Shown here one piece after another: positions 8,560 through 26,388 of a DNA stretch of 64,000 nt. This DNA is from Ectothiorhodospiraceae bacterium WFHF3C12 (GTDB lineage Bacteria; Pseudomonadota; Gammaproteobacteria; Nitrococcales; Nitrococcaceae): positions 1-64,000 of the forward strand of contig JACDUA010000016.1 in NCBI GenBank assembly GCA_013519935.1, given 5' to 3'. Under the pieces are notes generated by a model, which did no database searches, had not been told where the DNA came from, and worked only from the letters and a program-made list of their open reading frames with translations. Each line of letters starts with the position of its first letter. Position 1 is the first letter of the stretch. Both the position numbers and the translations under genes were made by a program.

Positions 8560-8664
8560 GATCCCCACACGCAAACGCCATCCCATGCTAGGTTAGCCGC
8601 AGGGAAAAAGTGAACAATGCCCCGCCGTCTCGGGATTGGCGCACAGCGAGTTGAGGAGAACGCG

Positions 8665-10898
8665 GTGGGAATGCTCGGAAGGCTCCCCGCCACAGCAATC
8701 GCGGCTGGCCTTTTCGCGGCCGCCGTGTGGGCGCTGCCGGGCGGCGCCAGCGGCAACGATGCCGCGCCCATCGTGTTCGGGGGCTCAGCGGCGTATCCGC
8801 CGCATCAGTGGCTGAACGAAAACGGCGAGCCCACGGGATTCCTGATCGACCTCCAGACCGCCATGGGCGCGGCGGGGCAGCGGCCGGTCGATCATCGGCT
8901 CATGCCCTGGTCCCGGGCGCTGGCGGCGCTGAAGGCCGGCACCGTGGACGCCGTGCCGATGTTCGCCTCGCCGGAGCGGGCACGGCGCTACGATTTCACG
9001 GATCCGTTCTACTATGTCACTCATGCCATTTTCGGGCCGGAAGACTACCCCGGCGTCGAAGGGCCGGGGGCCCTGAACGGCCGGACGGTCGCCGTGGTGG
9101 AGGGCGGCTACGCCCAGTCGCTGTTGCGTGACCGTCAGCCGAAGGCCCGGCTGACGCCCGCGGCCGACATCGAGTCCGCCGTCAAATCGGTCGCCTCGGG
9201 CGAGACCGAGTTCGCGGTCGTCGCTCAGCCCATCGCCGCCCGCCTCACCGCCGTGCTGGAGCTGCCCGTGAAGCAGATCAGCCGCCCTCTCTGGCCGCGG
9301 GCCTACGTCTTCGCGGTACGCGAGGGGAACACGGCGGACCTGAACTGGCTGCAGACCAATCTCCGCCGGGTGCAGGCCGCCGGGCGTTACCATGAGATCT
9401 ACGGCGACTGGCGCGATGAGCTCGAATGGCATCCCACTTCCTGGGGGGAAGTGCTCGCCCGGGCGTCATGGTTCATCGTACCGGCTCTGCTGGTGGCCGT
9501 GCTGGCGCTGGGCTGGAACCGCAGCCTGCGTGCCCGCGTGGCCGGGCACACCCGGGCCCTCAACGCCGAGCTCGCCCGGCGCCGGAACGTCGAGGCCAGC
9601 CTGATCCACGCGGCGAGCCACGACCCCATCACCGATCTGCCCAACCGGAGCGAGTTCAAGTACATGGCCACCGCGCACCTGGCCGAGCACCGGAACTCCG
9701 CGTCGGAAACACCGGTGGGCGTTCTGACCGTGAGCCTGGCCGACCTGGCCGAGGTGACCTCGGCGTTCGGCTACGAGACCGGCGAAGGTGTCGTACGCAG
9801 TTTCGCGGAAAAACTCTCGCGCCTCGACGAAAACCTTGTCGGCGATTTCGGCCGCGGCCACTTCGGGCTGCTCCGGTTCGGCGAGTGGAATGGCGAGGAG
9901 CTGCTCGCGGAGCTGAGTGCCCCCTTGGTGGTCGACGGGCTGGAAATCGACCCGCGCCTGAAGGCCTCGGCCGCCTGGCAGACCGACGCGCGCGAGAGTG
10001 CCGAGGAGCTGATACGCCGCGCGGAGACGGCGCTCGCCAGTACCGAGAGCGAAGCCGGGGGCTGGACCCATTACCGCCCGGGAATGGAGCCCGACCCCCA
10101 GGACCTGCTGCTGGTCCGCGACTTCCGCAGGGACTTCCCGGGCACGGCGCAAACCCTTTTCCAGGCCCAGTACGAGCCCGCCAGCGGGCGTTTCGTTGCG
10201 GCGGAAGCCCTGTTTCGGTGGGCCCATCCCGAACTGGGCCCGATCAGCCCCGGCCGGCTGATCCCGCTGCTGGACAAGGCCAACCTCACGCCGCGTGTGA
10301 CCGGCTATGTGCTGGAATCCGCCATTGCCACGGCCGTCAGCCTGCGGGGCGCGGGCCATCCGCTGCGGGTCAGCATCAACGTCTCGGGCAGTGATTTCGT
10401 CGCCGACGGCCTCGCCGACCGGGTCGGCGAACGGCTGAACGCGCTGGGCGGCCGTCCGGAGGACCTGTGCCTGGAGATCACCGAAACCAGCCTGATCAGC
10501 GATCCGCGCAAGGTCTCCCGCGAGCTGGAGGCCCTGAGCGAGATGGGTGTGAGCTGCGCCATCGACGACTTCGGCACCGGCTATTCGTCGCTGTCCTACC
10601 TGGGGCACTTCCCGCTGGACGAGGTGAAGATCGACAAGAGCTTCGTCCAGCGCATGACCACCGAAGCCCGCCATCGTGCCATCGTGCCATCGTGCACTCC
10701 AGCATCACCCTCGCCAGGGAGCTGGGCCTGCGTACCGTTGCCGAAGGTGCCGAGGACCAGGCCACGGTGGATGCCCTGCTGGAAGCCGGCTGCGACTGCA
10801 TCCAGGGCTTCTTCTACGCCCGCCCGGTGACGGCGGACGCCCTTGTGGCAATGCTCGCCACGGCTTCGGATTCAGCGAGCCGGGAGGGCGCGGAGTGA
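8665..10898 (+). pseudogene. periplasmic-sensor GGDEF/EAL protein, frameshifted near its 3' end (possibly phase-variable)
   Basis: The gene has a signal/TM segment, a SBP_bac_3-type periplasmic domain (about 35-260: PIVFGGSAAYPPHQWL, PMFASPERARRYDF), a TM helix (WFIVPALLVAVLAL), a GGDEF domain and an EAL domain. The GGDEF signature is replaced by FGRGHFG, so it is probably not a cyclase. The EAL domain keeps AEALFRW, SINVSG, LEITET, DDFGTGYSSL and VKIDKSF. After ARHRAIV the frame is lost: the current frame ends at 10830 with junk. The frame ending at 10898 carries the true end (LRTVAEGAEDQ, GCDCIQGFFYARP). Removing one 8-bp repeat unit at 10670-10693 gives a 741-residue protein. GTG 8665, 6 nt after GAGGAG, is preferred over ATG 8617 or 8671. 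Confidence 0.85.
10670..10693 (+). repeat. three tandem copies of GCCATCGT inside the EAL gene
   Basis: Three exact, adjacent copies of the octamer GCCATCGT occupy 10670-10677, 10678-10685 and 10686-10693. Two copies keep the EAL frame (A-R-H-R-A-I-V-H-S-S-I); the third shifts it. Such a unit can expand or contract by slipped-strand mispairing. Confidence 0.95.
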
Positions 10899-20203: not shown

Positions 20204-20383
20204 AGCCACAGATGGACACAGATAAACACGGATTGGTGAATCCCTTCCGGACCTTTAGGGCCGGGCCCGGCGCGAGACAGCCTTATTGGAAATCGCGGCG
20301 GGGTCGCCGCTCCCACGGGGCCACTCGCCAGCTTACATGGGCATTACAGCATTATCTGTGTTTATCTGTGTCCATCTGTGGCT
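20204..20383. repeat. A element copy 1 (26-bp perfect terminal inverted repeats)
   Basis: The ends, 20204-20229 (AGCCACAGATGGACACAGAT...) and 20358-20383 (...ATCTGTGTCCATCTGTGGCT), are perfect reverse complements over 26 bp. The 180-bp unit fills the gap between the BI-1 terminator and hemF, ending 29 nt before the hemF start. Its interior keeps one arm of a REP-like motif (GCGGCGGGGTCGCCGCTCCC). There is no transposase and no plausible gene. Confidence 0.9.
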
Positions 20384-20385
20384 AA

Positions 20386-21312
<927 letters not shown>

Positions 21313-24243: not shown

Positions 24244-24407
24244 AGCCACAGATGGACACGGATGAACACAGATTGATTGAGGTCCGTGCTGTTGTAGGAG
24301 CGCCGCGAGGCGCGATCGGTTCGTCGTCGTAACCCGCCCGATCGCGGCTTGCGCCGCTCCTACAGGTGCTGAATCGAATCTGTGGCAATCGGTGTTCATC
24401 TGTGGCT
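24244..24407. repeat. A element copy 2 between aceE and aceF
   Basis: The unit runs from AGCCACAGATGGACACGGATGAACAC to GTGTTCATCTGTGGCT at the right end. The inner right arm is imperfect (AATCTGTGGCAATCGGT). The 164-bp unit begins 24 nt after the aceE stop and ends 21 nt before the aceF start. Nested inside is a REP-like palindrome, TGTAGGAGCGCCGCGAGGCG ... GCTTGCGCCGCTCCTACA (about 24292-24363). Confidence 0.9.
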
Positions 24408-26166: not shown

Positions 26167-26388
26167 AGCCACAGATGAACACGGATAGACACAGATATTT
26201 CCGCCGGTCGTTCATGGCCGTGTTCCACTTGTGGGAGGCGCGTCCTCGCGGCGACGGCGCTCCAGCCATCGCGGCGGGGACGCCGCTCCCACAGGGGAGT
26301 ACACCACTTCGGGGCAAATTCGACCGTAATAGTGGGTCTAGCGTCACGCTCTCGCGAAATCTGTGCGCATCTGTGTTCATCTGTGGCT
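26167..26388. repeat. A element copy 3 between aceF and lpd
   Basis: The 222-bp unit has ends AGCCACAGATGAACACGGAT and ATCTGTGTTCATCTGTGGCT. It starts 19 nt after the aceF stop and ends 20 nt before the lpd start. A REP-like palindrome is nested inside (GTGGGAGGCGCGTCC ... GGACGCCGCTCCCAC, about 26232-26293). Confidence 0.9.

Follow-up and report, generated by a model that had tools for sequence, protein, structure and literature searches.

Phase-variable c-di-GMP phosphodiesterases have been described in Clostridioides difficile, where pdcB and pdcC are switched via an invertible promoter (PMC9286219), and in Escherichia coli, where the variation is under epigenetic control (PMC11868660). 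No repeat-switched EAL gene was found in the literature searched, which comprised open-licence papers. Small repeats of few copies can switch alleles in other genes, as illustrated by the three 6-bp repeats of Salmonella mutL, which interconverted in a mutator strain but in none of more than 10,000 colonies of non-mutators (PMC2955026). The window analysed here, a stretch of 64,000 nucleotides at the start of contig JACDUA010000016.1 of Ectothiorhodospiraceae bacterium WFHF3C12, contains a sensor/GGDEF/EAL gene interrupted at a short tandem array. Like the singleton fs-genes of the GeneTack survey (PMC3711429), it carries one indel, not common to its orthologues, in an otherwise intact Pfam-validated gene; it differs from them in that the inserted sequence exactly duplicates one unit of an apparently pre-existing 8-bp repeat. 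As in the mutL repeat of Salmonella and E. coli, the copy number of a short, few-copy coding repeat makes or breaks the protein. However, in mutL three copies are functional, the frame is kept and interconversion has been seen experimentally (PMC2955026), whereas the array in the window is known from one sequence. With pdcB and pdcC it shares the possible stochastic loss and gain of a phosphodiesterase, although those genes depend on site-specific recombination at the promoter (PMC9286219), and the window gene has a repeat in its coding sequence and no recombinase.

The reading frame as found occupies positions 8617-10830 of the forward strand, on which the parts of the gene described below are also located, and codes for 737 amino acids plus a stop, the last 46 or so residues being out of frame. 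The N-terminal part comprises an SBP_bac_3 periplasmic solute-binding sensor domain (8770-9411, residues 52-265; PF00497, E=9e-21), followed by a probable membrane-spanning helix, WFIVPALLVAVLALGW (9469-9516), proposed from its residues, and a weakly matching GGDEF domain (9613-10044, residues 333-476; PF00990, 39 bits). The position of the GGDEF motif is occupied by FGRGHFGLL, and this domain is therefore degenerate. The EAL domain comes last in the order. Its first part (10150-10692, residues 512-692) contains the EALFRW, NVSGSDF, EITET, DDFGTGYSS and KIDKSF segments, while the remainder, with VAEGAED and CIQGFFYARP, lies in another frame (10680-10826). The original C-terminal frame runs over 10692-10898, up to a stop codon at 10896-10898. 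In its intact form, the gene probably encoded a periplasmic-sensor EAL protein functioning as a c-di-GMP phosphodiesterase.

The array consists of three exact head-to-tail copies of GCCATCGT at 10670-10693, and its periodicity extends two bases past the third copy, to 10695, giving 3.25 copies in 26 bp, one unit above the in-frame state. Since the unit of 8 bp is not a multiple of three and lies within a coding frame, the number of copies determines which frame is read. The gene's own codons still show the precursor repeat: those for R-H-R-A-I-V correspond to GCCATCGT twice plus GC, and the A-I-V portion is common among EAL domains.

No single frame continues across the EAL domain. The Pfam match is divided into profile positions 14-194 and 188-236, in two frames which meet at the array (10670-10695), and in a single solved chain, that of MucR (5m1t), the residues matched by one half (54-226) adjoin those matched by the other (224-280). 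All of the conserved EAL segments (EAL/EALFRW, N, E, DDFGTG, KID, AEG and QG) are present, but they are divided between the two frames. The window gene is accordingly a periplasmic-sensor GGDEF/EAL gene disrupted by a frameshift at the array. In the EAL family, catalysis requires the glutamate of AEG and the glutamine of QG. The truncated product would lack the C-terminal portion of the EAL barrel, with these two residues, and is predicted to be inactive as a phosphodiesterase.

Two orthologues, from genomes of another gammaproteobacterial family (G414, a frame of 762 codons, and G421, 767 codons), share the domain order and the degenerate GGDEF domain of the window gene, with about 40% identity over 641-646 residues. 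Unlike the broken window copy, both keep a single frame across the whole EAL domain, including the array site, where neither has a tandem repeat of at least 5 bp. Relative to these intact homologues, the window gene contains a frame-disrupting indel, as in a frameshifted pseudogene or null allele. The distance from KID to the end of AEG is 38 residues in both orthologues and in 12 of the 13 paralogues from the strain's own genome in which the segment could be read (three of these spacings were counted by eye), the remaining one having 36. The halves of the window gene sum to 38 residues only if one GCCATCGT unit is discounted, which indicates that one unit has been gained.

Upstream of the lesion the frame is open over 685 codons and the motifs are conserved. 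Downstream, the GC content by codon position is 0.72/0.54/0.84 in the old frame, close to the 0.71/0.50/0.87 measured upstream of the lesion; the present frame there gives 0.48/0.87/0.71 and differs from the upstream coding frame. In a genome of 66% GC the lack of stop codons is by itself weak evidence of youth; however, the absence of decay elsewhere, together with the conserved AEG and QG segments, points to a recent lesion. The initial annotation had described three exact copies of the unit, the loss of the frame and of the last catalytic segments (AEG and QG) from the product, an in-frame state with two copies, and a recent lesion with the other motifs undecayed. These points agree, respectively, with the sequence as read directly, the Pfam halves in two frames, the 38-residue spacing recovered upon removal of one unit, and the intact orthologues together with the codon-position GC on both sides.

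The repeat content of the genome was surveyed in 1.69 of its 4.62 Mb (37%) and compared with 25 simulations of the same 1.69 Mb under an order-5 Markov model. For primitive units of 7, 8, 10 or 11 bp, exact arrays with three or more copies were represented by a single case, the GCCATCGT array, against 0.0 expected; the expectation rises to 0.75 three-copy arrays if sub-periodic units are included. Exact 8-mer arrays of at least two copies numbered 30, compared with approximately 45 in the simulations, so that a two-copy precursor is ordinary. The third GCCATCGT unit thus records a genuine duplication or, with much lower probability, an error; coincidence is excluded. The 1.69 Mb sample is nearly devoid of long simple repeats, containing one A10 and one G9, and has no tetranucleotide repeats of four or more copies.

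To find close relatives, 144 related genomes were searched using the whole protein, and the family (23 genomes), the order (54) and a sample of the class (369) using the sensor region. With the sensor region, no orthologue was found in the other 53 genomes of the order at the threshold used; one of the two orthologues came from the class sample, and the second from that genome's own order. A scan of genome contigs revealed only distant GGDEF/EAL relatives, and a plasmid search for relatives gave no match. The topA-sua5 neighbourhood is conserved across the family, where the window gene is absent beside sua5, so that gene order yields no second allele; the species and genus are represented by one genome. 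Missing from the other genomes of the order at that threshold and, within the family, from the position next to sua5, the window gene is an accessory gene. A mutator background was also considered. In the strain's genome (G000) mutS is intact, and mutL, which bears on the mutation rate, is split between two contig ends (C82:1-1077 and C4:10798-11313); ordinary mutL sequence continues to both edges, so the split probably reflects a gap in the assembly rather than a disrupted gene.

An ordinary recent slippage duplication at a short repeat, producing a null or truncated phosphodiesterase allele, is the probable origin of this structure. The R-H-R-A-I-V codons would have happened to supply the short repeat, and one 8-bp unit would recently have been gained there, most likely by replication slippage, a mechanism suggested by the repeat itself; the resulting frame shift would leave the sequenced strain with a null or truncated allele of the periplasmic-sensor EAL protein. 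Within this explanation we infer the slippage mechanism, the loss of enzyme activity and a stable loss rather than switching. The loss of one enzyme is plausibly tolerated, considering that the same genome contains 41 EAL and 81 GGDEF matches, two of the EAL matches being the halves of the window gene. A sequencing or assembly error, with a true array in frame and an intact gene, is unlikely: the 26-bp array fits easily within one read on any common platform, and the gain of an exact 8-bp unit is atypical of base-calling errors, although the assembly is a draft of 168 contigs and the gene, otherwise intact, has a singleton frameshift, a class in which the authors of a large survey regard many cases as errors (PMC3711429). 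There is only a slight chance that programmed ribosomal frameshifting restores the full protein. By frame arithmetic a -1 shift would bring translation back into the EAL frame, but the KID-AEG spacing would then be 41 instead of 38 residues; the overlap (10467-10830) contains no X-XXY-YYZ slippery heptamer, local folding is not stronger than in shuffled sequence (DNA parameters, z=0.74), and the orthologues need no shift. Recoding was rejected on these grounds.

Phase variation had also been proposed, with slipped-strand mispairing adding and removing units at a rate sufficient to turn the phosphodiesterase on and off across a population. The dependence of the frame on copy number, the undecayed remainder of the gene and the singular position of the array in the genome sample are consistent with this proposal, as are the mutL precedent for few-copy repeats (PMC2955026) and the phosphodiesterases switched by other means in C. 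difficile (PMC9286219) and E. coli (PMC11868660). However, the tract is short (3.25 copies), the related genes have not kept it, and the sampled genome has almost no long simple repeats; moreover, the mutL repeat did not switch in non-mutator colonies (PMC2955026), and mutS is intact here. Phase variation is thus quite improbable, and the fallback offered in the initial annotation, a plain mutation, fits better than switching, given the short tract, the lack of the repeat in orthologues and the intact mutS. It is more doubtful still that the copy number of an 8-bp repeat within the catalytic domain switches a c-di-GMP phosphodiesterase and thereby creates stochastic c-di-GMP states in an environmental gammaproteobacterium. 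The lesion would gain in importance only if reads showed mixed copy numbers, since the known phase variation of phosphodiesterases operates by promoter inversion or epigenetic control and not by a repeat in the catalytic domain. As it stands, the duplication at the short repeat offers a clear snapshot of a gene apparently just after its loss, the lesion being precise and the precursor repeat still legible in the codons; reversal through the same slippage mechanism would be possible in principle.

The c-di-GMP gene set is very large for a 4.6 Mb genome. It includes a second, more decayed EAL gene on contig C81 (1302-1727), in which the EAL match is interrupted by an internal TGA and a TAG. Identically scoring EAL matches end at the contig ends of C21 and C32, and C21, C32 and C111 carry identically scoring GGDEF matches; these are copies of a repeated gene that probably breaks the assembly. 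Elsewhere in the window, a 10-bp repeat type, CACAGATAAA/TTATCTGTGT, forms short intergenic arrays at 20207-20233, 20352-20380, 24247-24273, 26170-26197 and 26359-26385, which surround a hemF-like gene (20413-21312) and pyruvate dehydrogenase genes.
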